Below are positions 16,618 to 64,000 of a stretch of 64,000 nt of DNA, piece after piece. A program made the translations under genes and the position numbers. How positions within the stretch are numbered: the first letter of the stretch is position 1; every line of letters begins with the position of its first letter. The DNA is from Zobellia barbeyronii. GTDB taxonomy: Bacteria; Bacteroidota; Bacteroidia; Flavobacteriales; Flavobacteriaceae. A model generated the notes under the pieces. That model ran no database searches. It saw only the letters and a list, made by a program, of their open reading frames with translations, and had not been told where the DNA came from. Location of the stretch: NCBI RefSeq assembly GCF_018603515.1, contig NZ_JACATN010000003.1, positions 1 through 64,000 on the forward strand. Reading direction: 5' to 3'.

Positions 16618-17367
16618 ATGAAAACTAAAATCACTCCCGTTGTAACATTACTGCTTTACTTTTGTGCCTTTTTTTTATTTTCTTCTCAAAAAAATGCACC
16701 CGAAAAACCATCTTCAAATTGGGTAAATCCTTTTCCTAAAGATGGATTAGGCAAGAGTTATTCAATTACTCCAAATGACCTGCCCGATAATCAACAATTA
16801 TTCAATATAAAAAAGAATAAAATAGAGGTTCTCTATGCTTGGAAAGGAGACGAAGCTCCCTTTGGAATGATTACCACTAATAAAGAATACAGCCACTTTA
16901 ATTTTGAGCTAGAATACAAGTGGGGAGAGCGCAAATTTGCCCCTCGCTTAGAAGCAAAAAGGGACGCTGGTATCGTCTTTCATATTAAAGGAGAAAAAGT
17001 TGTCTGGCCCACATGTCTTGAATGTCAAATTCAAGAAGGTGACACTGGTGATTTATGGGTTATTAAAGGCCCAAAAGTTAATTGGTTCCAAAAAGATGGT
17101 TCTACTTTATTATTAGATTCTAGTGGTGAAAAAGACTATCTAGAAGGTGATAAATACAGTAATCATGAAGTTGATGGTTGGAACAAAGTACGCGTAGAAG
17201 TAAGAGGTTCAAAAAGTGCCAAATTCTTTGAAAACGGACAATTGGTTAATGAGCTAAAGGACTTTTTAAATGCAGATGGCACTCCGTTAGGAAAAGGAAA
17301 CATTGCACTGCAAGCAGAAGGCTCTGAAATAATCTATAGAAATATCAGGATTCAAGAAGTAAAATAA
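16618..17367 (+). CDS. Secreted DUF1080 (3-keto-disaccharide hydrolase-fold) protein
   Basis: 249 residues. An N-terminal hydrophobic segment (about 5-24) looks like a signal peptide. The remainder is a concanavalin-like beta-sandwich of the DUF1080/3-keto-disaccharide hydrolase family: FNFELEYKWGE, DAGIVFHIKGE, WPTCLECQIQEGDTGDLWV (family pattern P-x-x-x-E-x-Q), WNKVRVEVRG and NGQLVNEL, ending IALQAEGSEIIYRNIRI. Relatives act on 3-keto-glycosides or bind glycans in the periplasm. It opens the first PUL transcript, with GH29 21 bp downstream. A second DUF1080 gene lies at 61904, so the locus encodes two. Substrate unknown. Confidence 0.85.
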   Translation: MKTKITPVVTLLLYFCAFFLFSSQKNAPEKPSSNWVNPFPKDGLGKSYSITPNDLPDNQQLFNIKKNKIEVLYAWKGDEAPFGMITTNKEYSHFNFELEYKWGERKFAPRLEAKRDAGIVFHIKGEKVVWPTCLECQIQEGDTGDLWVIKGPKVNWFQKDGSTLLLDSSGEKDYLEGDKYSNHEVDGWNKVRVEVRGSKSAKFFENGQLVNELKDFLNADGTPLGKGNIALQAEGSEIIYRNIRIQEVK

Positions 17368-17388
17368 GAACAAGCATACTTTATTCAA

Positions 17389-18900
17389 ATGAAAAACAAG
17401 ATTGCCCTTCTTTTGGTATTGGGCCTTATAGGTGTATCCTACGCTCAAGAAAAATTTGAGCCAGAATGGGAAAACCTCAAACAACATAAAGCTTCTCCTG
17501 AATGGTTTGCAGATGCCAAGTTAGGTGTCTATTTTCATTGGGGCGTATACAATGTTCCTGCCAACGGAAATGAATGGTACGGCCGTTTTATGTACGAGAA
17601 TGACCGGGCAAAGACTTGGGGTAAAGATGTCTATGATTACCATACCAAAACCTATGGAAGAGATGTAGATTATCATGATTTTATACCCCAATGGAAAGCC
17701 GAAAAATTCTCTGCTAAACGTTGGGTGGATATGTTCGAAAACATGGGTGCCAAATTCATAGGAACCATTGCAGAGCATCACGACGGATTTTCCCTTTGGG
17801 AGAGTGAAGTCAATCCTTGGAACTCCTTTGATAAAGGCCCTAAAATTGACGTGGTAAAGCAAATTGGTGACGAAGTAAAGAAGCGCAACTTAAAATTTAT
17901 GACTACTTTTCATCATGGATTTCACATGCATTTTTATCCTAAAAAAGAGAACAGTTTTCTTCGTCCTGTAAGCATGCATGCCGTAACTTATGATAACCCA
18001 GAAGTTCCTCAGGAAGATGAATACCGCATTCTTTACGGAAATACTACCTATAAAGAAGAATGTGATATCTGGCTAGGAAAATTGAATGAAGTAATAGATA
18101 CTTATTCTCCTGATTATATTTGGATGGATTTTGCCCAAGGATATGTTCAAGAAGAGTATCGAAAACAATTTTTGGCCAACTATTTTAATAAAGCGAAAGA
18201 GCAAAATAAAGAGGTGGTAGTAAATACCAAAGGGTCATTTTTTCCAACGGATTTGGCTGTGGTGAATTTAGAAAGAGCTACGGTAAAAGATATTGCTCCA
18301 GAAGTTTGGGTAACGGATTTTCAGTTGGGTAGCTCATGGGGCTATAATAAAGATAAACGTACTGCTTTAGACCCTAAAAAAGCCATTCGGATTTTGGCCG
18401 AAGTGGTGAGTAAAAACGGAGTAATGATTTTAGCCGCTGCCCCAATGGCAGAAGGTATTATTCCTGAAGAACAAGCCAAGGCAATGGAGGGAATTGGAGC
18501 TTGGTTAAAACTATACGGAGAGTCTATTTACAAAACACGTCCGTTTGTTGCGTATGGTCAAGGACCAACCGAATTGCAACGAAATCCAGAAGACGAGTGG
18601 AATGATTATGGAGCCATAAAAGCTGGTTTATATGACTTGAATTCAGCTGATATTCGCTACACCAAAAAGGACAAAACAGTCTACGCCATTCAATTGGGTT
18701 GGCCGGGTGAGAATACAGAAACGGTGCTGACAGTTTTTGCTAACAAAGCCAAGGATATGGAAGTTAAATCGGTTTCTGTATTGGGTAGCAAACAAAAAAT
18801 AAAATGGAAAAAAACAGCAGAAGGCCTTTTGGTTACTTCTCCAAGAAAAATGCCTGCCGAAGCGGAAGCTGCACTAGTCTATAAAATAAATTTAAAGTAA
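17389..18900 (+). CDS. GH29 alpha-L-fucosidase-family exo-glycosidase (secreted)
   Basis: 503 residues. Signal peptide 1-19 (ends SYAQ). The GH29 barrel starts with WFADAKLGVYFHWGVYNVP. The family motif H130-H131-D132-G-F is intact in AEHHDGFSLWES. The likely nucleophile is D247 in YIWMDFAQG, and the VVSKNGVMIL strand follows. A C-terminal beta-sandwich (IRYTKKDKTVYAIQLGWPG) completes the usual two-domain form. GH29 enzymes are retaining alpha-L-fucosidases; some act on alpha-L-galactose, which differs only by the C6 hydroxyl. With GH16, GH117 and sulfatases in the same locus, both substrates are plausible. The acid/base cannot be fixed by eye. Sulfatase 20 bp downstream. Confidence 0.92.
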   Translation: MKNKIALLLVLGLIGVSYAQEKFEPEWENLKQHKASPEWFADAKLGVYFHWGVYNVPANGNEWYGRFMYENDRAKTWGKDVYDYHTKTYGRDVDYHDFIPQWKAEKFSAKRWVDMFENMGAKFIGTIAEHHDGFSLWESEVNPWNSFDKGPKIDVVKQIGDEVKKRNLKFMTTFHHGFHMHFYPKKENSFLRPVSMHAVTYDNPEVPQEDEYRILYGNTTYKEECDIWLGKLNEVIDTYSPDYIWMDFAQGYVQEEYRKQFLANYFNKAKEQNKEVVVNTKGSFFPTDLAVVNLERATVKDIAPEVWVTDFQLGSSWGYNKDKRTALDPKKAIRILAEVVSKNGVMILAAAPMAEGIIPEEQAKAMEGIGAWLKLYGESIYKTRPFVAYGQGPTELQRNPEDEWNDYGAIKAGLYDLNSADIRYTKKDKTVYAIQLGWPGENTETVLTVFANKAKDMEVKSVSVLGSKQKIKWKKTAEGLLVTSPRKMPAEAEAALVYKINLK

Positions 18901-18919: not shown

Positions 18920-20311
18920 ATGAATACAAAACTCATCTTTACATTAGCCATGGGTCTTATGACCACTTTACCGAGTATGGCACAAGAAAAAAAACCTAAC
19001 ATTATAGTAGTCTTAACGGATGACCAAGGTTGGGCAGATGTAGGCTTTAACGGAGCTACGGATATTCCCACTCCAAATCTAGATAAATTGGCCTCGCAAG
19101 GGGTAATTTTTGATAATGCTTACGTATCACATCCTTATTGTAGCCCGTCTAGAGCCGGACTTTTAACGGGCCGTTATCAGGCGCGTTTTGGTCATGATTG
19201 TAACATGCCTTACAAATCTGAAAATGATGCTACCGTTGGTACACCACTTTCTGAAAAAATGATTCCAGAGGCCTTAAAAGAGCAAGGTTACCGAACTAGT
19301 GCCATTGGTAAATGGCATTTAGGCGATCACCCTAGCCTTCATCCTATTCATCAAGGTTTTGACCATTGGTTCGGTTTTGCTGGTGGTGGAATGAACTATT
19401 GGGGTATACCAGATGGTCCTATCAAGACTATCGTAAGAAATGGCAAACCGGTTCCTCAAAATGAATTACGGTACCTAACCGATGATTTTACAGATGAGGC
19501 AATCGATTTCATTACTAAGAAAGATGATAAGCCCTTTTTCATGTATTTAGCTTATAACGCGCCACACGCACCTGACCAAGCTACTAAACAATACCTTGAG
19601 CACACCAAACATATAGAATATGGTGGGCGTAGCATTTATGCCGCTATGGTAAATGCAGTAGACTCTAATGTTGGTAGAATAGACTCTACGTTAACGGCAA
19701 ATGGTATGAAAGAAAATACAATTTTGGTTTTCTTAAGTGATAACGGAGGTCGCGTGGAACACGCAGATAACAGACCGTACCGTGGTCATAAAGGCATGTT
19801 GTTTGAAGGAGGAATTAAAGTTCCTTTCTTTATTACCTGGCCAGAAAAACTAAAGGCTGGGCAACATTACGAAAAGCCTATTAGTTCATTAGACCTTTTC
19901 CCTACATTTTTGCAAGCTGCAGGAGGTAATATAAAAGATGAATCTCAATTAGACGGCACCACTCTCCTACCCTATATTTTAGATGGCAAAACAGATACAC
20001 CTCATGAACAATTATTCTGGCGTTCTGTTGGCGGATTTGAATATGCAGTTAGAATTGGAGATTTTAAACTTTACAAAAGTGCCTACAAGCAAAAAACACT
20101 ACTTTTTAATCTTAAAAATGACCCTTGGGAAAGAACGGATGTAGCTGACAAACACCCTGATGTAATTGCTCAATTAGAAAAGGCTTACACAGCTTGGGAT
20201 TCTAAAAACCTTGTACCAGGTTGGTTTGATCCTCATAGCGAAAATGTACTCAAAGAAGAAAAAGCTTTTGAGTCTATGCGTAAAAAAGCTGAAGGACCAA
20301 CTGGTAAATAA
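18920..20311 (+). CDS. S1-family (type I, formylglycine-dependent) sulfatase, secreted
   Basis: 463 residues. Signal peptide 1-21 (SMAQ). The first metal-binding motif is NIIVVLTDDQGWADVG. The formylglycine motif is C74-S-P-S-R (HPYCSPSRAGLLTGR). Also seen are the GKWHLGDH motif, the YNAPHAP segment and the late metal site ILVFLSDNGGRVEHADN followed by RGHKG. It would remove a sulfate ester from an algal glycan in the periplasm or at the surface after Cys-to-formylglycine maturation. No maturase gene is in the window. It lies between GH29 and a second sulfatase. Regiospecificity cannot be inferred from sequence alone. Confidence 0.94.
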   Translation: MNTKLIFTLAMGLMTTLPSMAQEKKPNIIVVLTDDQGWADVGFNGATDIPTPNLDKLASQGVIFDNAYVSHPYCSPSRAGLLTGRYQARFGHDCNMPYKSENDATVGTPLSEKMIPEALKEQGYRTSAIGKWHLGDHPSLHPIHQGFDHWFGFAGGGMNYWGIPDGPIKTIVRNGKPVPQNELRYLTDDFTDEAIDFITKKDDKPFFMYLAYNAPHAPDQATKQYLEHTKHIEYGGRSIYAAMVNAVDSNVGRIDSTLTANGMKENTILVFLSDNGGRVEHADNRPYRGHKGMLFEGGIKVPFFITWPEKLKAGQHYEKPISSLDLFPTFLQAAGGNIKDESQLDGTTLLPYILDGKTDTPHEQLFWRSVGGFEYAVRIGDFKLYKSAYKQKTLLFNLKNDPWERTDVADKHPDVIAQLEKAYTAWDSKNLVPGWFDPHSENVLKEEKAFESMRKKAEGPTGK

Positions 20312-20350: not shown

Positions 20351-22033
20351 ATGAAACAATCCAAATGGTTTAAATCTTGGCTCATTGTACTGGCTATTTA
20401 TGCCTATCCAACGGTTCAGGTTTTAGCCCAAGAGCAACCCAACTTCATATTCATTTTAACCGATGACCAACAGTATGGGCTTATGGGGTGCACGGGCAAT
20501 ACTATAGTTCAGACGCCTAATCTTGATAAATTGGCTGCAGATGGTGTATTGTTTACCAATGCACATATAACCAGTGCTATCTGTACGCCAAGCAGAGCCA
20601 GTATTCTCACTAGTCAATTTGAGCGGAAACATGGGGTTAATTTTAATTCCGGCACCAGTATGTCTGAAGAAGGTTGGGCTAATACCTACCCAATGGTCAT
20701 GCGAGAAAATGGTTACTATACAGGATGGGTCGGCAAGAACCATGTTCCTGTTGGCAAAGGCGGCTATGATAGTGGCCTTATGGAAAAAAGTTTTGATTAT
20801 TGGTATGCCGGACACGGCCATTTAGGCTTTTACCCCAAAGACCGTCATGAGATTTTTAAAGATGCTAAATATGATACTCAAGTTGAAGTTGTAGACGAGG
20901 GAATCCAAGACTTTTTATCTAACGAGCAAAAGTTGGGCGGTGCCATAAAATTCCTTGATCAAAGACCAACGGAGAAGCCTTTTATGCTTTCCGTTTGTTT
21001 TAACCTTCCTCACGGTGCGGGTACCGGTTCTATGCAAATGCGAGATTCTGACGATGAGATTTACAAAACGCTTTATCGCGACCAAAATATTCCGTTACCA
21101 GAAAATTATATCGCTAGAAAAGATATAAAAACTCCAAAGCTACCGGCAGAACTGCTTCACGCAGAAGACCGTCAACCAGGTTATGATTATGTAGATACAC
21201 CTGAAGGTTTCAGAGAGCGATACATAAGGCAAATGGAAGCCATGACAGGGATAGACCGTCTTTTAGGGAAGCTTAGAAAAACCTTGAAAGACCAAAAATT
21301 AGATAAGAATACGGTAATTGTATTTACTTCTGACCATGGTCTTTTTATGGGGCAATTCGGTCTTGGCGGAAAAGCTTTGTGCTATGAAGAAACTACCCAT
21401 GTACCCATGATTATCTTTAACCCAAACACCAAAAAATCTAAGAGAGGAAAAACATCCGATGCTTTGGTACAGAGTATAGATATTGCCCCAACTATGATGG
21501 CCATGGCCGGCGTAGCTATTCCTGACAGTTACCAAGGCAAAAACTTAACCGGACTTTTAGCTGGTGAACAAGAAGCTGTGCGCCCATACCTTTACACTGA
21601 AAATTTATGGTCTACCCAATTTGGAAATCCAAGATGTGAAGCTGTCCAAGACCATGAATGGAAATACATTCGCTATTATAAAAACGAGAATTTCTCGGCA
21701 TTGAAAAAAATAGCTACTGCTAAAGAAATGGGTATGAATACCAGCGCAATGTTGTACAAAGTTCACGACCCAGATATAGCTGTTTACAGAGATTATGCAG
21801 ACGGACCACTAAATGGCGAACCAGCTGTCTATGAAGAGCTTTTTAATCTTAAAAATGACCCCAAAGAAACGACAAATTTAGCTATAGACACTGCAAACAC
21901 TAGTAAACTAGAAGAATTAAGAAAAATATGGAAAACAGAAATCACCAATGCTAGAGGCACAGATTTTCCAAAAGTTCTTAGGTATACATCAGATAGTGAA
22001 GTAGAAAGAGGGGTTATAATAGAGCCTAAATAA
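20351..22033 (+). CDS. S1-family sulfatase, secreted (long form)
   Basis: 560 residues. Signal peptide about 1-26 (VLAQ). Metal motif FIFILTDDQQYGLMG. The formylglycine site is C78-T-P-S-R (ICTPSRASILTS). Then VGKNHVPVGKGGYD replaces the usual GKWH, so the sulfate-binding Lys and His survive but the intervening residue is Asn. The late metal site is TVIVFTSDHGLFMGQFGLGGK. The insert around 200-300 makes it longer than the upstream sulfatase, from which it is clearly different in subfamily. It starts 39 bp after that gene and is followed by a strong terminator, so it is probably the last gene of the first PUL transcript. Confidence 0.93.
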   Translation: MKQSKWFKSWLIVLAIYAYPTVQVLAQEQPNFIFILTDDQQYGLMGCTGNTIVQTPNLDKLAADGVLFTNAHITSAICTPSRASILTSQFERKHGVNFNSGTSMSEEGWANTYPMVMRENGYYTGWVGKNHVPVGKGGYDSGLMEKSFDYWYAGHGHLGFYPKDRHEIFKDAKYDTQVEVVDEGIQDFLSNEQKLGGAIKFLDQRPTEKPFMLSVCFNLPHGAGTGSMQMRDSDDEIYKTLYRDQNIPLPENYIARKDIKTPKLPAELLHAEDRQPGYDYVDTPEGFRERYIRQMEAMTGIDRLLGKLRKTLKDQKLDKNTVIVFTSDHGLFMGQFGLGGKALCYEETTHVPMIIFNPNTKKSKRGKTSDALVQSIDIAPTMMAMAGVAIPDSYQGKNLTGLLAGEQEAVRPYLYTENLWSTQFGNPRCEAVQDHEWKYIRYYKNENFSALKKIATAKEMGMNTSAMLYKVHDPDIAVYRDYADGPLNGEPAVYEELFNLKNDPKETTNLAIDTANTSKLEELRKIWKTEITNARGTDFPKVLRYTSDSEVERGVIIEPK

Positions 22034-22585: not shown

Positions 22586-24589
22586 TTAAGGCCGATTATC
22601 ATCTATTTGAATGGTATAATCGTCATAATAAACATCACTTACACCAGCTGGTACTGGTTGAATACGTACGGTTCCGTTTGAAGTTGCTGCGGCGATAAAG
22701 GTAAATTCTACCAATTGCCATTTGCCCAACTCGTCTTCTGGATCGTTCCACTGATCATTTATATTTTGATCACCAAAGAAGTGTTTGGCGAAAGCTGTAG
22801 ACGTCGTGCTACCTAAATATCTTTTATATTTTACCCTGTAGGCAGTTCCCGCTTCAAAAGCAAATGTACCGCTGGTAATAGTATTAGGCTTATTGCCATC
22901 AGGAGCAAACAAATGCATAACGTTACCAGAAGGCACTACATCAGAAACTATATCTGGTATTGGTGCCGCAACTATTTCTGCTGCTCCGGCTCCGTTAGAA
23001 CCCGTATTTAACCAATCCGTATCAAGGGCGTTTTCAAACATCCCTACATCACCTAATATATTATCCTCATCAGGTACCACGGTAACCGGACCAAAATCTA
23101 CCAACTCTCCCGCTCCTATGGAAAGAATGTCTCCTGGGCCAACATAAGAAATAGTAATCTCATCATCTCTATACAATTCTTCGCTAAGCATTATTCTTAA
23201 AACAGTAGCATCCGCAGCATCTACCTCAACAGAACTTACTACCGAAGCAACACCATTAACCATTGCAGAAAAGCCCATAGTGGCATCTGCAGAGGCCATA
23301 ACCGAAGCAGGATCTAACTCTTGATCAAACATTACTAAAATGGCATCATCTTCAGTCACTTTTTGAACAGTTCCCACATTATTAACCGGAATTGGAACGT
23401 ATACCTCAACAGGCACAGCGCTAAAAGCTTCAAGAACACGCTCATCTACTGATTTTAATGTGGTGCTACCACCATCATAAGAAACCGTGACCGTATTGGC
23501 TGCATCCGTACCTTCTAATTGCGTTTCTAATACAAGTATTAGCTTATCTACATTAAGTTGATTTTGAGATACAGAAGCAACTGGTCTTGCCACACCGTTA
23601 ACTTCTACCATGAAATTGGAAGACACATCTTCCGTAAGTTCTACCAATTTTGAGCTTAAAGAAACTTCAATTGAATTATCTGCCATTTCAATCACATCAC
23701 CTGCTTGCTCCAAGGCCTCGTCCAAAGCGGTAACATTAAATGTTACAGGAATCTCATACGTCTCTTCGTCTGCTTGTACAGCTTCGGTTCTATCTCTTTT
23801 GGAAACCAAACGACCTTGAAACTTTCCTATCCGCTTGTTGAAAACCAACGTATCTATTGTCTTTTCTTCGTTGACATTTATGATGTTTTCCTCATCTTCT
23901 TCATTTTCCTCAATAGTATGAATTGTCCATACGGTAGAGGTTGGTCTAGATGTATTATTCTGGCGACTCAAGTCTTCAAAAACAAGTGCATCACCAAACT
24001 TTAAATCAATTACATCTTGACTTTTAAAATCGATTTTACTTCCGGCCAAGTTTCTGATTTCCATATCTGCCACGATAGTATCGTACACATCCACAATAAT
24101 GGTATAATCCAAAACCCAAGCTGCACCTTTTTGAACCGTTCGCAGGGTGTCAAAAATGGATGAGTTGGTTTCTGTGTCCCATCCTGTTGGCAAAACAAAC
24201 TCCGTATATTCTTCATACTCGTTATGCAACTTTATAGGCGTAAGTGAATCCCCTTTCGTAAACAATACATGTACCGTTCTTTCGTCAGATACCATACCGG
24301 CACCCTCAATAATACTAGATTCAAAACTATCTGCTTTTGTAGGCAGAGGGCCCTCTAGAAAAAACGTTCCTTCCGGAATGGTCCACTCATGTTTAGTAGT
24401 ACCATTGGATAAGTCCATAAAGGACCCATAATTGTTTATATCTACATCTTTATCTACCGATGTACCCCAAGTTGTGGTAAAAGCGGCATCAACAAAGGTG
24501 TTTGGTGCTACGTACTCGTCATCATCTTCACAGCCAACAATAATCAGCAGTAAAAAAAGAAACCTAATACTATATTTTATATCTCTCAT
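22586..24589 (-). CDS. Surface glycan-binding lipoprotein (SusE-position) with SwmB-like domains and a C-terminal jelly roll
   Basis: 667 residues. Lipoprotein signal with lipobox IIVGC (C20) followed by acidic EDDDE, which favours surface export in Bacteroidota. About 25-290: PKD/Ig-like beta domains. About 290-400 and 400-505: two SwmB-like repeats (NSIEVSLSSKLVEL and DAILVMFDQELDPASV). About 510-667: a galactose-binding or CBM4/9-like jelly roll (ENALDTDWLN start, FAFEAGTAYRVKYKRYLG, KWQLVEFTFIA, SDVYYDDYTIQID). It is the third gene of the susC-susD operon, 21 bp after susD, the position used by SusE/SusF-type glycan-binding proteins. Direct homology to SusE is not claimed. Likely role: capture of the locus's polysaccharide at the outer surface. 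Confidence 0.82.
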   Translation of the reverse strand: MRDIKYSIRFLFLLLIIVGCEDDDEYVAPNTFVDAAFTTTWGTSVDKDVDINNYGSFMDLSNGTTKHEWTIPEGTFFLEGPLPTKADSFESSIIEGAGMVSDERTVHVLFTKGDSLTPIKLHNEYEEYTEFVLPTGWDTETNSSIFDTLRTVQKGAAWVLDYTIIVDVYDTIVADMEIRNLAGSKIDFKSQDVIDLKFGDALVFEDLSRQNNTSRPTSTVWTIHTIEENEEDEENIINVNEEKTIDTLVFNKRIGKFQGRLVSKRDRTEAVQADEETYEIPVTFNVTALDEALEQAGDVIEMADNSIEVSLSSKLVELTEDVSSNFMVEVNGVARPVASVSQNQLNVDKLILVLETQLEGTDAANTVTVSYDGGSTTLKSVDERVLEAFSAVPVEVYVPIPVNNVGTVQKVTEDDAILVMFDQELDPASVMASADATMGFSAMVNGVASVVSSVEVDAADATVLRIMLSEELYRDDEITISYVGPGDILSIGAGELVDFGPVTVVPDEDNILGDVGMFENALDTDWLNTGSNGAGAAEIVAAPIPDIVSDVVPSGNVMHLFAPDGNKPNTITSGTFAFEAGTAYRVKYKRYLGSTTSTAFAKHFFGDQNINDQWNDPEDELGKWQLVEFTFIAAATSNGTVRIQPVPAGVSDVYYDDYTIQIDDNRP

Positions 24590-43678: not shown

Positions 43679-43682
43679 CATT

Positions 43683-45251: not shown

Positions 45252-45304
45252 GTCCATTCAGCATATAAAATCAACTTACTTTAAAACAGCTTCAAACTAG
45301 AAAA

Positions 45305-46921: not shown

Positions 46922-46933
46922 AAAAATATTCAA

Positions 46934-48211: not shown

Positions 48212-48245
48212 AAAGACTTCGGTTTACACAAAAATCCAAAATGGT

Positions 48246-48386: not shown

Positions 48387-48401
48387 TATTAGAACAGAAT
48401 T

Positions 48402-50899: not shown

Positions 50900-51889
50900 A
50901 TGAAAACTAGAACCTTTCAATTTTTAGCAGTATCTTTTTTACTCTTTCAAACTGGGCTTATGGCTCAAGAGAATTTATTGGTACCACAACAGGCCAATGA
51001 ATATGTACGAATCTATAAGCCTGATGGTGATTATTTTTTCGCCCCCGATACACCAAACCTAAAAGAAGGAAAATGGTATGATGAATGGGTTCCCAACGAC
51101 CATACTTTTGTAAAGGGAGATGATGGTAAGTGGCATATATTCGGGATTACCCACCCATTGGTAGAAACAACCCCTCTCAATAATGGCATACACGAAGGCG
51201 AGCATGGTTCTTTTCATGCCGTATCAGAAGCAACAGATTTTAAAGAAACGGTAAAAGAACATCACTATAATGATCTCCCTAAAATATTGACTCCAAAAGA
51301 CCGTCCTGGAGAAATAGCTGCTAACCACGCACCTTATATTGTTAGAAAAGACGGACTCTTTCAGATGGTTTATGGCCATAGCCCAATGCGATTGGCAGTC
51401 TCTGACAACCTATATGATTGGGAACCAAAAGGAGAGCTTTTTTCGGACCCAGATGGTGCACGAGACCCTAATTTACTTTTATATAAAGGCACGTATTATC
51501 TGACGTATTGCTCAATAAAAAGTGTCCGAATGGTAACTTCTAAAGATTTGATTAACTGGAGTAAACCTAAAATCATTCTTAAGACCAACAAGTTTGATCC
51601 TGAATCGCCATCCCTACTGTTTCACAACAATACCTTTTACCTTTTTGTTTGCGCGTGGGAAGGTGGCTGGGACGGCAAAGACATACAAGGTGCTTATACC
51701 CATAAAGCTTATGTATACAACTCCAACGACCTGAACGACTTTGGCTCGGACCAAGAGAAAGAAATTGCCGTATTAAATGCCCATGCTCCCGAGATTTTTC
51801 AAGGCGAAGATAACCAATGGTATATCTCTAGTGTAGAGTGGCCGTACCGAGGAGTGAGCATTGATAAATTAGAGTGGATTAAAAAATAA
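50900..51889 (+). CDS. GH43-like five-bladed beta-propeller glycosidase, secreted
   Basis: 329 residues. Signal peptide about 1-22 (LMAQ). Propeller motifs recur: PNDHTFVKGDDGKWHIFGIT, ANHAPYIVRKDGLFQMVYGH, GARDPNLLLYKGTYYLTYC, ESPSLLFHNNTFYLFVC and HAPEIFQGEDNQWYISS. This is the blade-start pattern of the GH32/43/62/68/117 superfamily. Candidate carboxylates are the Asp of PNDHTF, the Asp of ARDPN and the Glu of PESPS. Family number is uncertain and could be GH43 or an unassigned relative. It is a second propeller enzyme close to GH117, so it may take the next sugar from the chain. Confidence 0.72.
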   Translation: MKTRTFQFLAVSFLLFQTGLMAQENLLVPQQANEYVRIYKPDGDYFFAPDTPNLKEGKWYDEWVPNDHTFVKGDDGKWHIFGITHPLVETTPLNNGIHEGEHGSFHAVSEATDFKETVKEHHYNDLPKILTPKDRPGEIAANHAPYIVRKDGLFQMVYGHSPMRLAVSDNLYDWEPKGELFSDPDGARDPNLLLYKGTYYLTYCSIKSVRMVTSKDLINWSKPKIILKTNKFDPESPSLLFHNNTFYLFVCAWEGGWDGKDIQGAYTHKAYVYNSNDLNDFGSDQEKEIAVLNAHAPEIFQGEDNQWYISSVEWPYRGVSIDKLEWIKK

Positions 51890-56263: not shown

Positions 56264-57796
56264 ATGAAAAGTCCAACCAAATCCATCCTTTTTAAGTTAA
56301 ATACGTTCATTCTATTTTTCTTGACCGCTACACTAAGTTTTGCTCAAAAGTCAGCAACGATAAGTGAAAAAGTGGCTATGCCATATCAAGCAGATTGGTC
56401 GTCTTTACAAAAGCACACTACTCCAGATTGGCTTTATGGAATGAAATTCGGAATCTATTTCCATTGGGGTCCTCAGACCGTACAAGTAGCTTCTAAAAAT
56501 CCAGAAATGACCGTTCTGGAAGCTATTGATACTTGGAAAGGTGAAAAATTTGATGCTGAAAAGTGGGCAGATTTAATGCAAGCAGCAGGTGCCCAATTTG
56601 GTGGGCCCGTGGCATGGCATGGTAGTGGTGTCGTAAATTGGGATAGTGATATAACGGATTGGAATTCCGTAAACAAAGGACCTAATGTAGATATATATGG
56701 GAGTTTAGCAAAAGAACTTCGCAAACGTAATATGCCCATAATATCCTCTTTCCATACAGGAGACTTTTGGAGTCGTATGTGGGGCCAATTATCCAAAGAA
56801 GACCCAACTTACCTTAATCCTTATGAAGATAATTCAAAGTACGCCACTGCTAATAAAGGTCGTATTTCAGATGCTATTTTCAAAGCTTGGTTTGACCGTA
56901 TTTCAGAAGCTATCGATAAATACGAGCCAGACATGATTTGGTTTGATACTGGATTTGGCGGAACTGTAAAAGGAGAATTGAAAAACTACACAGACAATGG
57001 CCGCCTCTTGCCAGACGGAGCTAATGAACTAAATAGTGTTCCGGAAAGCTACCAACAAAAATTGATCAGTGATTACTTCAACAAAGGCTTGGACTTGGGC
57101 AAAGAGGTAGAAGTATTTTACAAAACTCATGATATCCCACCAGGAATAGGGCTTCGCGATATAGAAGATGGGAACTTACTTGGTATGCAATATGACCCAT
57201 GGATGGCAGACATTAATATGCAACGTCATTTTGAGTGGCGTAGTACCTGGTTTTACAACCCTGTAAACAAGGTGAAGGATGCCGGTACATTAATCGATAT
57301 GTTGGTTGATATGACCAGCAAAAACGGCAGAATGCTTCTAAATGTACCTCCCATGGCCGATGGTAGTTTTTCCGAGGAAACCAAGAAGGAATTATACGCC
57401 ATGGGCGATTGGCTAAAGATAAATGGGGAAGCTATTTATAACACCATGCCATGGATATTTTATGGTGAAGGCCCCACAGAAGTAACCAATCCAGGCCATC
57501 ACGGACAAGGAAAAGACCATGGTGAATTGATTCCAAAATATACTTCAGAAGATATCCGGTTTACTCAAAACGGTAAAAACCTATATGCCATTTGTATGGA
57601 ATGGCCAGGAGAACAAATTACCATTAGAACATTAGGTAGTAAAGGGAAACTCTATCCAGGTGACATCAAAAATATTTCAATGTTGGGAAGTAATGAACAT
57701 ATCAAATGGGAACAGAAACCAGAAGGTTTGGTGGTTACATTTCCAAAAGAAAAACCATGCGATTTCGCTTATGTATTAAAAATTGAGCGGCGTTAA
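56264..57796 (+). CDS. GH29-like enzyme with altered active-site motif
   Basis: 510 residues. Signal peptide about 1-27 (SFAQ). The GH29 scaffold is clear: WLYGMKFGIYFHWGPQTVQ, DITDWNSVNKGPNVDIYG, the likely nucleophile D228 in MIWFDTGFGG, LVDMTSKNGRMLLNVPPMADG and WIFYGEGPTE. The normal His-His-Asp-Gly-Phe motif is replaced by W-H119-G-S-G-V (VAWHGSGVVNWDS), so the second His and the Asp are lost. The nearby strand PIISSFHTGDFW also differs from the other two. It is probably active, since the nucleophile remains, but on another sugar or a substituted one (for example L-galactose or a sulfated or branched residue). It starts directly at the stop of the DUF5060 gene. Confidence 0.85.
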   Translation: MKSPTKSILFKLNTFILFFLTATLSFAQKSATISEKVAMPYQADWSSLQKHTTPDWLYGMKFGIYFHWGPQTVQVASKNPEMTVLEAIDTWKGEKFDAEKWADLMQAAGAQFGGPVAWHGSGVVNWDSDITDWNSVNKGPNVDIYGSLAKELRKRNMPIISSFHTGDFWSRMWGQLSKEDPTYLNPYEDNSKYATANKGRISDAIFKAWFDRISEAIDKYEPDMIWFDTGFGGTVKGELKNYTDNGRLLPDGANELNSVPESYQQKLISDYFNKGLDLGKEVEVFYKTHDIPPGIGLRDIEDGNLLGMQYDPWMADINMQRHFEWRSTWFYNPVNKVKDAGTLIDMLVDMTSKNGRMLLNVPPMADGSFSEETKKELYAMGDWLKINGEAIYNTMPWIFYGEGPTEVTNPGHHGQGKDHGELIPKYTSEDIRFTQNGKNLYAICMEWPGEQITIRTLGSKGKLYPGDIKNISMLGSNEHIKWEQKPEGLVVTFPKEKPCDFAYVLKIERR

Positions 57797-57841: not shown

Positions 57842-60322
57842 ATGATGTATTTAAATTACCATCGGCAAAAAGAAAAAACCACAATTACATTTACTTTATT
57901 ATCAATTATATTTTTTCTTTTTTGGAGCTTGGGCTTGTCAGCTCAAAGCGTTCTTCTTGGGGATAACGCCCCCTATCCCAATGTAAATGATGGTGATTTT
58001 AAATTGATAAAGGCCGGTTCTTGGCGCCTTGGATTGCAGTCTCCTTTCTGGACGCCCTCTAATGAGCCACAAAAAGAAGGTCATTCTATGGGTTTGGTTA
58101 CTGGACGGTATTTTAGTTCTTTTGATTATGCTTATATCGATTCTAAACCCCTGAACACCAATTCTGATCATCAAAACCTGAAACCCGGTGATGAACTGAA
58201 TTGGAGCCTTGGTGCCGATTTGGAATACATAAGTAACGGTACTATTTCGTTACATCTATTCTTTGGAAATCAAGAGTACATCTTAGCCGAAAATATGAAA
58301 CTCACAGGCTCTGACAAAACTGTTGAACATTTCTCAGGAAGTTATACGGTTACAAAAGCAGATGTTGTAGCCGGACCTCCACATATTCGTGTCTCATTCT
58401 ATTCAAGTGAAGACGTTAAAGTCTATCTAGATTATGTGAACTTGAATATAAAAACGCCTGAAAAACAAGGCCCTAAGCTTTCAGGAAAAGTTATTGACCA
58501 AGGTATTCAGTTAGATTGGCAAGATGAAAAAGCAAATCCAGATAGTACATTTTCAATATACGGAAGCAAAGGTGAAAACGGAGAATACAAAAAACTGAAT
58601 ACTACCCCTAACTCTACCTTTACGGATACAAACCTTATTAACGGTATTACATATAGCTACGTTGTAACCCGTCTCAACACCTCAGAATCTGGAGGATCTA
58701 ACAAGGTACTTCTTAAGAAAATAGACAGTGATGCCCCTACCCCTCCAACAGCCCTAAAAATTAAGGCATTTGATACCGAGATTAAAATTGAATGGGAGAA
58801 AAACCCAGATATTGATGTAGCCAATTATTCGGTTTATAGGGGGGATGCCAACGGGAACCATCTACGACAAATTGCTCATGACCTTACGGATTCTAAATAT
58901 GTAGATTTTACCCCTATAAAAGATTCCCTTAACTCCTATTTGGTATTTGCACACGATTATTCAGGTAATAAAAGCATGGCTTCTCAAATAGTAAAAGCAA
59001 AAGTAAAAGCAGTTTCCGGAGCTTCCTTTAGCGACCTTATTCTACCGATGCCCATTCACAATAAACTAAGAACCGATCTTTGGGGAACGGAGGGTGTTTT
59101 GCCTCGTGACCCGGATAACGGTATTGAAGACCCTGAGTGGAGCTATTGGGGTGGTAGACCTGTAAAAGATAGAGACAACAAATACCATATGTTGGTAACT
59201 AGGTGGCCAGCAAACGCAACTAAAGGTCATTGGGAATGGCCAAATTCAACTGTAGCGCATGTGGTCTCTGAAGCACCTACTGGACCATACAAGGTAAAAG
59301 AAGATACGGCGTATGATTTTCACAATGGGCTGGGCCATAATCCCGATATTATATTGTTAAACGACGATACATATCTGTTTTATTCTTTGGTAAATTGGGA
59401 AGCTACATTATTTACTTCCAAAACCATGAATGGCCCATGGAAACGTCTAGGGGTTATGACGGTAGATTGGAAAAGCACAAATGAAGATGAAAAACTGTCG
59501 TACCGTTATTATCGTAATCTATCTGGAGTTCAGTTAGAAGATGGTAGGTTTCTATTTGTGACAAAGGCCGGAGAAATGATGCGCAGTGAAACAGCTGATC
59601 CTCTAGGGCCGTATACCGTTCTGACCGATCAGATTAGATACAACCAAATTATTCCCGAAAAATATAGAAACTCCAATTACGAAGACCCAGTACTTTGGAA
59701 AGATGAAGTACAATACCATATGATGATTAATGCCTTTTGGGACTATCGTGCAATTTACCTACGTTCCCCAAATGGTATCCATTGGAAATTCAATCCCGGA
59801 ACGGCATATACACCAGACAATACTTCCTATGAAGATGGTACGCGAACCCATTGGTACAAATTAGAGCGGCCCCATGTATTACAGGACCAGTATGGTAGAG
59901 CCACTCATCTTTCTCTTGCAGTAATAGATGTCTCAAAGGCAGATGATTTGGCCAGAGATAAACACAGTTCTAAAAATATTATTGTTCCCCTTACTGTGCA
60001 TAAACGCATTAAGATGTTGAATAAAAAGAAGATAGATTCAACCACAAAAAAGATTAAAATTCTGGTGTTTTCAGAACAGGGTTTTGATGCTCAAAAAGAT
60101 ATTGACCTTGCCTCTTTGCGATTCGGTGCTACGGAGGAGGTTGATTTTGGAAGGGGATCAAAAGCTATTAAAACCAAGAAAAAAGGGAATGACCTTATTA
60201 TTGAATTCAACGGCACCGGAAACGGAATTACAGCTATCAATTTTGCAGGAAAACTACTTGGAAAAACAAAGGAGGGTAAGTTGATTATAGCCTTTTCAAA
60301 ACTTTCATCAAACAAAGATTAA
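57842..60322 (+). CDS. Multidomain secreted protein: N-terminal jelly roll, FN3 pair and GH43/117-like propeller
   Basis: 826 residues. Signal peptide about 1-35 (LSAQ, long basic start). About 40-195 is a CBM-like beta-sandwich (FKLIKAGSWRLGL, VKVYLDYVNLNI). About 200-385 are two FN3 domains (GIQLDWQDE, ITYSYVVTRLN; EIKIEWEKNPDIDVANYSVYRG). About 400-700 is a five-bladed propeller with WSYWGGRPVKDRDNKYHMLVTRW, GLGHNPDIILLNDDTYLFYS, YEDPVLWKDEVQYHMMINAFWDYRA (in parts) and KLERPHVLQDQYGRATHL. About 715-826 is a C-terminal beta domain. The propeller resembles GH43/GH117 relatives, with the Asp of NPDI and the Glu of YEDP as candidate carboxylates. It is likely an exo-glycosidase on an unassigned linkage. 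Confidence 0.72.
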   Translation: MMYLNYHRQKEKTTITFTLLSIIFFLFWSLGLSAQSVLLGDNAPYPNVNDGDFKLIKAGSWRLGLQSPFWTPSNEPQKEGHSMGLVTGRYFSSFDYAYIDSKPLNTNSDHQNLKPGDELNWSLGADLEYISNGTISLHLFFGNQEYILAENMKLTGSDKTVEHFSGSYTVTKADVVAGPPHIRVSFYSSEDVKVYLDYVNLNIKTPEKQGPKLSGKVIDQGIQLDWQDEKANPDSTFSIYGSKGENGEYKKLNTTPNSTFTDTNLINGITYSYVVTRLNTSESGGSNKVLLKKIDSDAPTPPTALKIKAFDTEIKIEWEKNPDIDVANYSVYRGDANGNHLRQIAHDLTDSKYVDFTPIKDSLNSYLVFAHDYSGNKSMASQIVKAKVKAVSGASFSDLILPMPIHNKLRTDLWGTEGVLPRDPDNGIEDPEWSYWGGRPVKDRDNKYHMLVTRWPANATKGHWEWPNSTVAHVVSEAPTGPYKVKEDTAYDFHNGLGHNPDIILLNDDTYLFYSLVNWEATLFTSKTMNGPWKRLGVMTVDWKSTNEDEKLSYRYYRNLSGVQLEDGRFLFVTKAGEMMRSETADPLGPYTVLTDQIRYNQIIPEKYRNSNYEDPVLWKDEVQYHMMINAFWDYRAIYLRSPNGIHWKFNPGTAYTPDNTSYEDGTRTHWYKLERPHVLQDQYGRATHLSLAVIDVSKADDLARDKHSSKNIIVPLTVHKRIKMLNKKKIDSTTKKIKILVFSEQGFDAQKDIDLASLRFGATEEVDFGRGSKAIKTKKKGNDLIIEFNGTGNGITAINFAGKLLGKTKEGKLIIAFSKLSSNKD

Positions 60323-60370: not shown

Positions 60371-61795
60371 ATGAATACATTTAAAATAGTTTTCTTTTTT
60401 CTGTTCTTATTTTCTTCAGCACAGATAGAAGCTCAGTCTAAAAATGTCATTATCATCTTCACAGATGACCAAGGGTATGAAGATTTGAGCTGTTTTGGTT
60501 CGAGTAATTTACAAACCCCAAATATTGACCGTATGGCCAAAGAGGGTCTAAAGCTCACTAGTTTTTATGTGGCTTCATCTGTCTGCTCTCCTTCCAGAGC
60601 TGCTTTATTAACGGGAAGAATGCCCAAACGTGTAGGCGTGCCGGGTGTATTGTTTCCTAAACCGAATGAAGGCGGACTTCCTCCGGATGAAGTAACCATT
60701 GCAGAGCTTTTAAAAGAAAAGAACTATAAAACCGCATTGGTAGGCAAGTGGCATTTGGGGCATGATAAAAAGTATTTACCCTTAAATCAAGGCTTTGATT
60801 CGTATTACGGTATTCCGTACAGCAATAACATGTCTGTTGCTCCAGGTATTGACATTTCAAAAGATGTAGTATTAAACGATAACTACACGTATGAACATAT
60901 GGCTTCGGATATCAGTAGAGTAGAAAAAAACCTAACTAAGGTGCCCGAAGAAGACCTTAAAAACAAACCTCCATTAATGCGGGGAAATGAGATTATTGAA
61001 TACCCTACCAATCAAACAACACTTACCGAACGGTATACCAAAGAAGCCGTTTCTTTTATCGAGCAGAATAAAGAAAAACCGTTCTTCCTATACTTCGCTC
61101 ACTCATTTCCGCACGTGCCTGTTTTTGTTGGTGACAAGTTCAAAGGAAGTAGTGGAACTACCCCGTATTATGATGCCCTTCAAGAAATTGACTGGAGTGT
61201 GGGTGAAATTTTAAAAACACTAAAAGAGAATGGTTTAGATGAAAATACAATGGTGATTTTCACTTCTGATAACGGACCAAACCGTCACGGTTCTGCTAAA
61301 CCGCTCAAGGGAAGAAAATTCGATACGTATGAAGGCGGACAACGTGTTCCGGCAATTATCTGGGCTCCAGGTAATATAAAAGCTGGTACGGTTAGCGATG
61401 AAATTGTTTCATCACTTGATATTTTCCCCACCATAGCTAATTATGCGGGTATTTCTTTACCAAAAAATAGAGTGTTTGATGGTTACGATATGTCATATTT
61501 TTTCAGCGGAAAAACCAAAAAATCACCTAGAAAAGAAATGATTTTCTATGGTTCTAATTCAACAAAAATTGACGGTATTCGTGTTGGAGATTGGAAGTAT
61601 TTAATTAAGGGGTATAGAAAAACCTCTTGGCATAAACTTTCTGAGGCAGACCTTAAAATTAAATTATTCAATGTAAAAGATGATAAATCCGAGTCTGAAA
61701 ATGTAATTGATTTGAATGCTAAAAAAGCAAAAAAACTTTTAAAACGAATGCAGCATTTTGATACTGATTTAGAAATGGATATTTCAAAAAAATAA
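60371..61795 (+). CDS. S1-family sulfatase, secreted
   Basis: 474 residues. Signal peptide about 1-22 (IEAQ). Metal motif NVIIIFTDDQGYEDLSCFG. The formylglycine motif is C72-S-P-S-R (SVCSPSRAALLTGRMPKRVG). VGKWHLGHDKKYLPLNQGFDSYYGIPYSNNM is typical of arylsulfatase/N-acetylgalactosamine-6-sulfatase-like enzymes. FAHSFPHVP and the late site MVIFTSDNGPNRHG with PLKGRKFDTYEGG complete the metal and sulfate pocket. It resembles the sulfatase at 18920 in overall motif set more than the others. It starts 48 bp after the propeller gene. Confidence 0.94.
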   Translation: MNTFKIVFFFLFLFSSAQIEAQSKNVIIIFTDDQGYEDLSCFGSSNLQTPNIDRMAKEGLKLTSFYVASSVCSPSRAALLTGRMPKRVGVPGVLFPKPNEGGLPPDEVTIAELLKEKNYKTALVGKWHLGHDKKYLPLNQGFDSYYGIPYSNNMSVAPGIDISKDVVLNDNYTYEHMASDISRVEKNLTKVPEEDLKNKPPLMRGNEIIEYPTNQTTLTERYTKEAVSFIEQNKEKPFFLYFAHSFPHVPVFVGDKFKGSSGTTPYYDALQEIDWSVGEILKTLKENGLDENTMVIFTSDNGPNRHGSAKPLKGRKFDTYEGGQRVPAIIWAPGNIKAGTVSDEIVSSLDIFPTIANYAGISLPKNRVFDGYDMSYFFSGKTKKSPRKEMIFYGSNSTKIDGIRVGDWKYLIKGYRKTSWHKLSEADLKIKLFNVKDDKSESENVIDLNAKKAKKLLKRMQHFDTDLEMDISKK

Positions 61796-61903: not shown

Positions 61904-62698
61904 ATGAGATTATATAAAATGATTTTTGGCTTTGCTATAGTGCTTACTTTTTGCCAATGCCAACAGCTAAAAAACCAAAAAACGGATAAGGAAAATTGGC
62001 AAGTTCTTTTCAATGGAAAAAATTTGGCCGGATGGGTAGTTAAGTTCAACCATCATGAATTAGGAGATAATTATGCAAATACTTTTAGAGTGGTTGACAG
62101 TGTGATTCAAGTAAATTATGATGGTTATACTGAATTTGGAGAACGCTTTGGACATTTATTTTATCATAAACCATTTTCAGCTTATCACCTTAAATTCGAA
62201 TATCGTTTTACAGAACAGTGGATGGACGAGGCTCCTATTCATGCCTATCGTAACAGCGGTATTATGTTTCATTCACAAGACCCAAAAATCATTTTAAAAG
62301 ACCAGAAATGGCCTGTAGCTGTAGAGTTTCAATTTTTAGCCGAAGAAACAGAGGGGGAACCAAGGCATACGGGAAATTCATGCAGCCCGGGAACGCACAT
62401 TCATAAAGATGGTAAATTAATTAAACAGCATGTGGTACAGTCTAGTTCCAAAACTTACAAATGGAATCAATGGGTGAAGGGTGAGTTAATTGTAGATAAG
62501 CAATCTAATATAACGCATATAGTGGAAGGAGATACTGTTTTGCAATACTCCAACCCTATAATTGGAGGTCGTGCTATAGTAGGTTCTGATCCAGCTATGC
62601 TAGTTGATGGCAAAGCAATATCAAGTGGCTTTATTGGTCTACAGGCAGAAGGTCAAGGAGTAGAATTTAGGTCTATTAAGATTAAGACACTGGATTAA
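61904..62698 (+). CDS. DUF1080 (3-keto-disaccharide hydrolase-fold) probable lipoprotein
   Basis: 264 residues. The N-terminal hydrophobic segment ends FCQCQQ; C17 or C19 could be lipid-modified, though the lipobox is imperfect. Family motifs are WQVLFNGKNLAGWVVK, FRVVDSVIQVNYDG, AYHLKFEYRF, NSGIMFHSQDP, PVAVEFQFLAE, WNQWVKGELIV and the C-terminal SSGFIGLQAEGQGVEFRSIKIK. The full LFNGKDL-W start makes it a more canonical member than the one at 16618. Likely periplasmic, acting on a (keto-)glycoside or binding an oligosaccharide. A 108-bp gap upstream may carry its own promoter; none is clearly seen. Confidence 0.87.
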   Translation: MRLYKMIFGFAIVLTFCQCQQLKNQKTDKENWQVLFNGKNLAGWVVKFNHHELGDNYANTFRVVDSVIQVNYDGYTEFGERFGHLFYHKPFSAYHLKFEYRFTEQWMDEAPIHAYRNSGIMFHSQDPKIILKDQKWPVAVEFQFLAEETEGEPRHTGNSCSPGTHIHKDGKLIKQHVVQSSSKTYKWNQWVKGELIVDKQSNITHIVEGDTVLQYSNPIIGGRAIVGSDPAMLVDGKAISSGFIGLQAEGQGVEFRSIKIKTLD

Positions 62699-62793
62699 AA
62701 ATTACAGAAAAAGGAAAATAATTACATCATAAATTCTCTCCAATATTGAATTTAATGGAACAATTAAGGCTTAATAAATATTAGACAAAAAAC

Positions 62794-64000
62794 ATGATGA
62801 CTTTTTTTAATAAACAGACAACACTATTAATTCTTCTACTATTGATAAGTGGATGCTTTGCAGAGGCAGCTAGTCAACAAAAGCCAAACATCCTTTTTTG
62901 TATTGCCGATGATCAATCTTTTGTCCATACTTCCGCTCAAGGTACGGCAGAGTTAAACACGCCTAATTTTGACCGCGTTGCCAAGAGTGGGGTTATATTC
63001 AACAACGCCTATACGAACGTGTCTTCTTGTGCTCCGTCAAGAGCTTCCATTTTAACCGGGCGTAACATTTGGGAACTTGAAGAAGGGGGACTATTGTTTG
63101 GAGGATTGCCTAAAAAATACACCACTTTTTCGACTCTATTATCCCAAAACGGATATAGCACAGGGTATTCTGGCAAAGGGTATATGCCGGCCAATCAAAA
63201 AGAACCCTACCAGATACGCCCATTAGCTCCAGAGTTCAACGACATTAAAATGGATGCCCCAAAAAATATGTCCAATAAAGATTATGCGGAAAACTTCAAT
63301 GCATTTCTTTCTAGTAAAGAAGAGGGCAAACCTTTCTTTTTTTGGTTCGGGTCACATGAAGCCCACCGAGGATACGATGCTGGAAGTGGCGCTAGAGCAG
63401 GCAAAGATATTTCAAAAATAGAGGTACCCGGATTCTTACCCGACAATGAATTGATACGTAATGATATCGCCGATTATTACAATGAAATAGAATGGTTTGA
63501 CTCGCACTTGGGTCGTATGATCAAAGCGCTAGAAGAAGCCGGAGAGTTGGAGAACACTATCATAATTGTAACGGCAGATAATGGAATGCCTTTTCCCCGT
63601 GCAAAAGGTACCTGCTATGATTATGGCACACATATGCCTTTAGCCATATGTTGGGGCAATAAAATTAAAGGGGGCAACCACGTAGATGATTTTATAAGCT
63701 TCACTGATTTTGCTCCCACTTTACTAGAAGCCGCTGGTATTGCTGTTCCCGAAGATATTACAGGAAATAGTTTTCTAGAAGTTTTGCTGTCCAATAAAAG
63801 CGGGCAAATTGACCCTAAAAGAGATCGGGTATTTACGGCTTTGGAACGCCACACCTATTGCCGTCCCGGAGGAGCTCCCTATCCCATACGAACCATTCGC
63901 AAAGGCGATTGGTTGTACATGCTAAATTTTGAACCTGACAGATGGCCTTCCGGTAATCCTGATTTTGCTTCTCCACACCAAGGTTTTTACGGAGATATTG
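62794..64000 (+). CDS. S1-family sulfatase (partial, C-terminus beyond right edge)
   Basis: 402 residues are visible from ATG 62794 with no stop before the edge. The N-terminal signal contains a lipobox-like LISGC (C21), but cleavage at EAAS is also possible. Metal motif NILFCIADDQSFVHTSAQG. The formylglycine motif is C79-A-P-S-R (SCAPSRASILTGRNIWELEEGG). GYSGKGYMP replaces GKWH. FGSHEAHRGYDAGSG and the late site IIIVTADNGMPFPRAKGTCYDYGTH follow. The motif set is heparan-N-sulfatase-like, a subfamily seen often in algal PULs, and does not by itself give the substrate. It shows that the PUL continues beyond the window. Confidence 0.93.
   Translation, partial: MMTFFNKQTTLLILLLLISGCFAEAASQQKPNILFCIADDQSFVHTSAQGTAELNTPNFDRVAKSGVIFNNAYTNVSSCAPSRASILTGRNIWELEEGGLLFGGLPKKYTTFSTLLSQNGYSTGYSGKGYMPANQKEPYQIRPLAPEFNDIKMDAPKNMSNKDYAENFNAFLSSKEEGKPFFFWFGSHEAHRGYDAGSGARAGKDISKIEVPGFLPDNELIRNDIADYYNEIEWFDSHLGRMIKALEEAGELENTIIIVTADNGMPFPRAKGTCYDYGTHMPLAICWGNKIKGGNHVDDFISFTDFAPTLLEAAGIAVPEDITGNSFLEVLLSNKSGQIDPKRDRVFTALERHTYCRPGGAPYPIRTIRKGDWLYMLNFEPDRWPSGNPDFASPHQGFYGDI

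Follow-up and report, generated by a model that had tools for sequence, protein, structure and literature searches.

A polysaccharide utilization locus of Zobellia barbeyronii and its probable target, an L-galactose-bearing sulfated red-algal galactan

The stretch analyzed here, called the window throughout, comprises the first 64,000 nucleotides of contig NZ_JACATN010000003.1 (C31 in what follows) of the 4.98 Mb Zobellia barbeyronii genome, and its subject is a cluster of glycan-active enzymes and sulfatases that begins at position 16618. Pfam models were run on the 26 open reading frames (ORFs) of at least 150 amino acids between 16618 and 64000, and a SusC/SusD pair was found beside glycan-active enzymes and a regulator (Pfam assignments of 24611, 26530, and 30352), which identifies the cluster as a polysaccharide utilization locus (PUL). 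An earlier sequence-only reading had listed three GH29 (17389, 36484, and 56264), a GH2, a GH16, two GH28, seven sulfatases (18920, 20351, 34765, 43683, 45305, 60371, and 62794), a DUF6786, and a DUF5060 protein, all of which Pfam recovered, and the models for GH86, GH50, GH127, and GH129, families it had reported missing, likewise found no match in the 26 ORFs. Its text did not include the trio of SusC, SusD, and surface glycan-binding protein (SGBP) or the hybrid two-component regulator that the window also contains. That inventory stands, but position 64000 is not a boundary: the cluster runs on to approximately C31:110321, and the interval from 16.6 to 110.3 kb (about 94 kb) is one PUL or two side by side, of which the window holds the left part.

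The core of the locus extends from the SGBP gene to the GH16 gene, and each member has a counterpart in a genome of our comparison set, G005, which is very probably Z. galactanivorans as judged from GH117 bit scores and gene order; percentages given with genes are identities to G005, and genes lie on the forward strand unless stated otherwise. On the reverse strand are a putative surface glycan-binding lipoprotein at the position of ZGAL_3639 (22586..24589; lipobox-like N-terminus, SWM_repeat, 79%), a SusD-like protein orthologous to ZGAL_3638 (24611..26518; Pfam SusD, 85%), and a SusC-like TonB-dependent transporter orthologous to ZGAL_3637 (26530..29709; Pfam, 91%). These are followed by the hybrid two-component regulator at the ZGAL_3636 position (30352..34593; Pfam Reg_prop, Y_Y_Y, HisKA, response regulator, and AraC-type domains, 83%), by S1 sulfatase (c) at the ZGAL_3635 position (34765..36282; Pfam, CAASR, 91%, best PDB match 148 bits), and, on the reverse strand, by GH29b, the ZGAL_3634 orthologue (36484..38040; Pfam 354 bits, lipobox-like N-terminus, 93%). 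A 16-pair hairpin at 36310-36345, between the convergent genes 34765 and 36484, is likely a bidirectional terminator; promoter-like sites in 29600-48500 number 50 against a shuffle mean of 55.2, which is no excess. The remainder of the core consists of a GH2 beta-galactosidase, the ZGAL_3633 orthologue (38402..40879; Pfam, NCBIfam GalB at 898.5 bits with a cut-off of 900, 87%), GH28a, the ZGAL_3632 orthologue (40876..42288; Pfam, 90%), GH28b, the ZGAL_3631 orthologue (42290..43678; Pfam, 88%), two sulfatases orthologous to ZGAL_3630 (43683..45251; Pfam, CVPSR, 91%) and ZGAL_3629 (45305..46921; Pfam, CGPSR, 86%), to which Table 1 of PMC5698469 gives the subfamilies S1_28 and S1_30, and a GH16 protein orthologous to ZGAL_3628, PorD (46934..48211; 76%).

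The relationship to Z. galactanivorans can be followed gene by gene. The window GH117 (48402) scores 656.7 and 515.6 bits against its two G005 homologues and 656.2 and 515.8 bits against PDB 4u6d and 4u6b, chains that we take to be Zg3615 and Zg3597 of Z. galactanivorans. The region G005:C1:4150001-4258000 contains orthologues (70-93%) of 22 of the 26 window ORFs, in reversed order except for the GH117. The 4 window ORFs lacking an orthologue in that region encode a DUF6786 protein (49677..50849; Pfam 520 bits, no match), S1 sulfatase (d) (60371..61795; Pfam, CSPSR, best match only 40%), a DUF1080/3-keto-disaccharide hydrolase-like protein (61904..62698; Pfam 117 bits, no match), and the 506-residue S1 sulfatase (e) (62794..64000, continuing to C31:64314; Pfam, CAPSR, best match only 25%). 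Between 22034 and 22585 the window has only a 552-base gap where G005 holds a GH16 gene at the PorE position and one additional gene. Gene 14374, which flanks the locus, adjoins it in G005 also (80%), and the left edge is therefore conserved.

The family order GH16, S1, S1, GH28, GH28, GH2, GH29, S1, hybrid regulator, SusC, SusD fits ZGAL_3628-3638. Table 1 of PMC5698469 gives ZGAL_3629 as S1_30, ZGAL_3630 as S1_28, ZGAL_3631 and ZGAL_3632 as GH28, ZGAL_3633 as GH2, ZGAL_3634 as GH29, ZGAL_3637 as SusC, and ZGAL_3638 as SusD, and the text of that paper names the GH16 proteins ZGAL_3628 (PorD) and ZGAL_3640 (PorE). By similarity and gene order, the window core is orthologous to the published locus ZGAL_3628-3640 with its flanks, a match that makes it a further copy of a described locus; the core gene set has been in print since 2017 (PMC5698469) and is not new. 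The locus tags ZGAL_3628, 3640, 3633, 3634, 3615, and 3597 were found in the literature only in that paper, and the names Zg3615 and Zg3597 only in PMC2897777, as far as these sources extend. Two of its genes are also widespread in the genus: GH28a occurs in all 8 other Zobellia genomes searched (86-92%), and the GH117 in eight genomes of the genus, six at 91-94% and two at 71%, with values of 92-94% in Z. amurskyensis, Z. russellii, and Z. uliginosa.

What the locus degrades has to be judged first from the enzymes with characterized relatives. The GH16 protein is porphyranase-like: its PDB matches are beta-porphyranase 4awd (169 bits), PorB 3juu (132), and PorA 4ate (119) and 3ilf (114), with every other PDB entry listed at 46 bits or less; its ExDxxE motif is present as EWDIHE at residue 168. 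GH29b groups by similarity with the exo-alpha-L-galactosidase of porphyran breakdown, whose entries score 444-446 bits (7ljj 446) against 274 for the next different GH29. PMC12316285 describes the B. plebeius porphyran pathway as one in which a sulfatase acts first, then a GH29 of this type, and then a GH2. The GH117 (48402..49664; Pfam GH43 model, nearest G005 homologue 70% and elsewhere in the locus) belongs to the 4u6d/4u6b type, with 656 and 516 bits to those entries versus 201 to the anhydro-galactosidase 4ak5; it is thus not closest to the AhgA (3,6-anhydro-alpha-L-galactosidase) entries. The motif C-x-[PA]-S-R is present near residue 72-90 in all seven window sulfatases; no orthologue of BpS1_11 was found among the three compared with PDB (20351, 34765, and 43683). 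Outside the window, in the distal part of the cluster, sulfatase S1i is S1_11-like, with 348 bits to exo-L-galactose-6-sulfatase, but is nearer to 7p24 (506). NCBIfam supplied no names for the three window GH29 proteins, the fourth GH29 outside the window, or the DUF6786 protein.

A porphyranase-like GH16, an L-galactosidase-type GH29, a GH117, and a distal S1_11-type sulfatase would also suit a strict porphyran or agar locus, one dedicated to the main cell-wall polysaccharide of Porphyra or Gelidium. We regard this as distinctly unlikely, given that the transcriptome of agar and porphyran growth names other clusters and that its main text contains no ZGAL_36 tag (PMC5613140), and given that the two GH28, the GH74-fold protein, the DUF5060 protein, and the many sulfatases exceed the porphyran pathway in its published outline. 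Moreover, the GH86 model PF18206 matches nothing in this genome, and among 9 Zobellia genomes it matches one.

Among the unassigned enzymes of the locus are the two GH28 proteins. In polygalacturonases the histidine of the GHG motif and the RIK motif are, we assume, the positions that contact galacturonate. Among 30 GH28 orthologues aligned (18 a-type and 12 b-type), the GHG position reads W[GA] in all 30. At the RIK position every a-type protein (18 of 18) has GLKIQ and every b-type protein (12 of 12) has GIK[ILV]L; N-x-D and DD are retained throughout (30/30). The best NCBIfam model for GH28a, rhamnogalacturonidase, gives 220 against a cut-off of 500, far below it. A comparator GH28 on contig C22 of the same genome also lacks GHG and therefore offers no canonical control. 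Because the His and Arg/Lys positions of polygalacturonases are gone from both window GH28 proteins, a galacturonan target is disfavored; we rejected it as the leading reading, and the uronic acid branches that the sequence-only reading had considered find no support in these proteins.

Other members are likewise unassigned. The protein at 51927..54584 had been described as a propeller with twelve Asp-box motifs; 12 are found with a loose pattern but only 4 fit the strict S-x-D-x-G-x-T-W. Its AF2 model (mean pLDDT 84) predicts a GH74 double-propeller fold, with Foldseek ranks 1-25 all of GH74-type, xyloglucanase, or OXG-RCBH proteins (E down to 3e-32, 14-17% identity). An Asp of what we take to be the PDM motif lies at residue 71 and is Asp in 10 of 13 aligned rows and Asn in 3; the second catalytic Asp could not be located. 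The protein at 57842..60322 (81%; no Pfam family) had been called an FN3/propeller protein, of which the FN3 part matches weakly (E = 0.0037). Its C-terminal half is 26-29% identical to GH117-like proteins, and this GH117/GH43-like assignment is one of sequence, since the 50 Foldseek rows listed for its AF2 model (mean pLDDT 75) were mostly FN3 or receptor chains and included no GH43 or GH117 propeller. Between these two lies a DUF5060 and Apiosidase-like enzyme (54605..56263; PF13204 61.5 bits, PF16586 31.6, PDB 4n0r 62, 85%); its ORF opens at 54515, but a start near 54605 is likelier because the earlier one overlaps the previous gene by 70 bases and the later one precedes a signal-peptide-like stretch. 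The GH28 signatures and the GH74 fold were not met in print, neither having been the subject of its own literature search. Both GH28 subfamilies, like the protein with the predicted GH74 fold, have homologues in other genera and are candidates for new enzyme activities.

We scored 199 genomes of the family, representing 198 genera (the Z. barbeyronii genome and G008 are both Zobellia), with thresholds picked after seeing the lists: at least 60% for GH28a, at least 100 bits for the GH16 type, at least 70% for GH29b, and at least 45% for DagA-type GH127; some first-look candidates were scored in only part of the genomes. GH28a has an orthologue in 10 of the 199, the Z. barbeyronii genome included. 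The GH16 type is present in 10 of these 10 vs 4 of the 189 others, GH29b in 9 of 10 vs 7 of 189, and DagA-type GH127 in 7 of 10 vs 14 of 189. One genome, G066, falls below the GH16 cut-off by 0.2 bits, and in another, G081, a partial GH28a match (64% across 112 residues) and some short stretches of DUF5060 were not counted; with G081 included the GH28a counts become 10 of 11, 9 of 11, and 7 of 11. The 3 GH28a genomes without DagA (G024, G026, and G207) retain GH2-GH28-GH28-S1_28 neighborhoods. The DagA query is one GH127 paralogue, and genomes without a match to it may use carrageenan by other means. The cassette thus shows a tighter association with the GH16 of porphyranase type and the GH29 of L-galactosidase type than with DagA, though it correlates with DagA too. 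The DUF5060 type (at least 46% over most of the length) occurs in 9 of 199 genomes, 8 of them with GH29b and 8 with the GH16 type, and the full-length 57842 type in 7 of 199, all 7 with GH28a. Among 77 non-Zobellia GH117 loci, 31 have at least 1 of 17 chosen partner genes (at least 50%) and 17 have at least 2; this set is not an independent test, because GH117 was the basis of its selection and some of the loci come from one and the same genome.

We infer that the locus takes up and dismantles an L-galactose-bearing sulfated red-algal galactan, either an agaran that is sulfated or a D/L-hybrid between agaran and carrageenan, and put the probability of this at roughly 0.6. That the locus serves a galactan of red algae, and probably neither plain agar nor plain carrageenan, had been proposed from the sequence alone, and the proposal is supported by the porphyranase-like GH16, the grouping of GH29b with exo-alpha-L-galactosidase, and the location of GH127 on another contig. 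Gene content, orthology, motifs, and conserved linkage are observed here, and induction and GH2 activity come from the literature on the orthologues; the pathway built on them would begin with the GH16 cutting beta-1,4 bonds within porphyran-like stretches. Oligosaccharides would then be imported by SusC/SusD/SGBP and sensed by the hybrid two-component regulator, and sulfate would be removed by S1_28, S1_30, and the other sulfatases. Alternating exo steps, in which GH29b takes alpha-L-galactose and GH2 takes beta-D-galactose, could resemble the BpS1_11-BpGH29-BpGH2C sequence, with the GH117 and GH43-like proteins removing anhydro- or modified L-galactose and the GH28 pair opening a non-galacturonan linkage.

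Several results weigh against an L-galactose-bearing galactan. The eight core genes listed in Table 1 of PMC5698469 (ZGAL_3629-3634 and 3637-3638) are induced on kappa-carrageenan (log2 7.1-9.9) and on iota-carrageenan (log2 3.9-6.9), and the same paper reports that the GH2 ZGAL_3633 is active on odd-DP oligo-carrageenans; induction and activity fit carrageenan as directly as they fit a hybrid. The GH16 ZGAL_3628 is not among the genes of that table, which is a selection, and for the SusD ZGAL_3638 no significant binding was seen with porphyran or agar either. GH29b has its highest PDB score with 7snk, named an alpha-L-fucosidase (457 bits), and the similarity cluster of BpGH29 as given in PMC11189522 also contains xyloglucan fucosidases. 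Sulfatases 20351, 34765, and 43683 reach only 118-120 bits against L-galactose-6-sulfatase, with no clear orthologue among them. All 9 genomes with the DUF5060 type also have DagA, and the three DagA-less genomes lacked this GH16 type in the stretches fetched.

The induction and the GH2 activity would also suit an accessory carrageenan locus. In that case the GH2, the GH29, the two GH28, and the sulfatases would deal with side branches or unusual sulfation of kappa- or iota-carrageenan, and the GH16 PorD would be either a carrageenase or a bystander. DagA-type GH127, found in 7 of 10 GH28a genomes and in every DUF5060 genome, points the same way. However, no GH127 or GH129 was found in the 26 window ORFs or in the part of the distal ORFs that was scanned, and the GH127 model (PF07944), run on the whole genome, matches on contig C22 only; the GH16 is porphyranase-like; and the cassette is kept in genomes that have no DagA. 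In PMC5698469, moreover, ZGAL_3638 has no significant binding to the galactans tested, carrageenans included, the carrageenan SusC/SusD pair ZGAL_3580/3581 is located elsewhere, and the authors themselves consider the locus more likely to serve another sulfated galactan, e.g., sulfated agars. We consider an accessory carrageenan role unlikely.

An L-galactose-bearing galactan may also account for the induction. The substrate section of PMC5698469 names Kappaphycus and Eucheuma as sources, and PMC7511586 describes carrageenophytes as making agar-group galactans, with KCl-soluble fractions enriched in D/L-hybrids. Since agaran or D/L-hybrid galactans are also products of carrageenophytes, preparations of carrageenan would then act as inducers of the locus. 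If true, L-galactose motifs within or beside carrageenan would answer the puzzle left in 2017, why carrageenan should induce a porphyranase-bearing locus, and bacteria would own a tool dedicated to a galactan that is minor yet widespread and difficult for chemists to isolate. A fucose-containing (fucoidan-like) or ulvan-like substrate could be argued from the four GH29 and many sulfatases of the full cluster and from S1 sulfatase (b), whose nearest solved relative, 6hr5, is named an alpha-L-rhamnosidase/sulfatase, but the relatives of the GH16, GH2, and GH117 have galactan substrates, the published induction by carrageenans already weakens such a reading, and in a brown-alga study (PMC9296495, to whose PUL numbering the locus was not matched) the induced set did not cluster with any of the PULs known for red-algal polysaccharides; we hold it to be highly improbable. 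More tentatively, and with considerable doubt, this could be the first known locus for the D/L-hybrid or agaroid galactans of carrageenophytes. Its GH28 pair (W[GA], GLKIQ/GIK[ILV]L) would have moved from galacturonan to a bond of alpha-linked galactose, and its GH74-fold protein would constitute a new galactan-active family.

The remaining window genes lie on either side of the core. To its left are a DUF1080/3-keto-disaccharide hydrolase-like protein (PF06439; 16618..17367; Pfam 82 bits, 75% to a G005 gene in the same place), GH29a (17389..18900; Pfam 294 bits, 72%), S1 sulfatase (a) (18920..20311; Pfam 238 bits, CSPSR, 89%), and S1 sulfatase (b) (20351..22033; Pfam, CTPSR, 216 bits to 6hr5), homologues of which adjoin GH28 in other genera. 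To its right are a small GH43/GH130-like propeller protein (50900..51889; Pfam PF04616 38 bits, PDB 9fj8 25 bits, 84%) and GH29c (56264..57796; Pfam 198 bits, 87%). The distal part (64-110.3 kb) adds 4 sulfatases and a fourth GH29, which brings the sulfatases of the full cluster to eleven and its GH29 to four, together with a PVC-type heme protein, 2 further GH2 by Pfam and 1 by similarity, two FAD oxidoreductases, a CstA-like carrier, SSF carriers, a GH97, GH117-like proteins, a lactonase-like protein, a DHDPS-type aldolase, an enolase-family protein nearest to galactonate dehydratase, and a second SusC/SusD pair (C31:78653-83606). The aldolase, the galactonate-dehydratase-like enolase, and a sodium symporter (C31:93159-96909) have no orthologue in the G005 region, where the symporter has only a 35% paralogue, and are possibly a lineage-specific sugar-acid module. 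In the adjacent sulfatase-family protein S1g (C31:96906-98363), the pattern [CS]-x-[PA]-x-R was not matched between residues 41 and 129, and the protein may therefore be inactive or a variant.

Beyond approximately C31:110321 the genes lie on the opposite strand and include a glutamate-dehydrogenase-family gene and a sigma-54-type regulator. Farther on, C31:119919-139942 carries two further SusC/SusD pairs and sulfatase-like genes, assigned by similarity only, and one of these SusC proteins shares 50% identity with the orthologue that the window SusC has in G005. On the other side, a reverse-strand ORF of 4428 residues (598-13884), in which Pfam recognizes a CHU_C type IX secretion domain (91 bits), adjoins the locus and probably encodes a giant secreted protein. 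Elsewhere in the genome, a second GH29 (G000:C22:471918-473435) is 78% identical to GH29b, and four GH117 relatives also lie on C22, the nearest to it at 435547 and 447476, which suggests another L-galactose locus.

Set against known systems, the window is closest to ZGAL_3628-3640, with the same families in the same order, core proteins from GH16 through SGBP that are 76-93% identical, and the flanking gene 14374 (80%) and DUF1080 gene 16618 (75%) kept. It differs in that the second GH16, at the PorE position, has no orthologue in the window, in that 49677, 61904, 60371, and 62794 are without orthologue in the G005 region, and in the placement of the GH117 elsewhere in the locus. PorD orthologues named by phylogeny in Z. 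amurskyensis and Z. laminariae (Zam_1698, Zmar_1649, and Zlam_2939; PMC6950322) share PorD with it, in a paper whose main text does not mention PULs. In Z. galactanivorans, carrageenans induce the carrageenan-specific PUL ZGAL_3145-3159 (GH127/GH129) together with the ZGAL_3629-3638 core, but that PUL has GH127, whereas the window locus has no GH127 model match and the genome's GH127 is on another contig. With the porphyran PUL of B. (Phocaeicola) plebeius (BpGH16B, BpS1_11, BpGH29, and BpGH2C), as set out in PMC12316285, the window shares a porphyranase-like GH16, a GH29 that groups with BpGH29, a GH2, and sulfatases. Unlike that system as described there, it is without a GH86 match and has an S1_11-type sulfatase only in its distal part, and it adds two GH28, a 4u6d-type GH117, a GH74-fold protein, DUF5060, and DUF6786.

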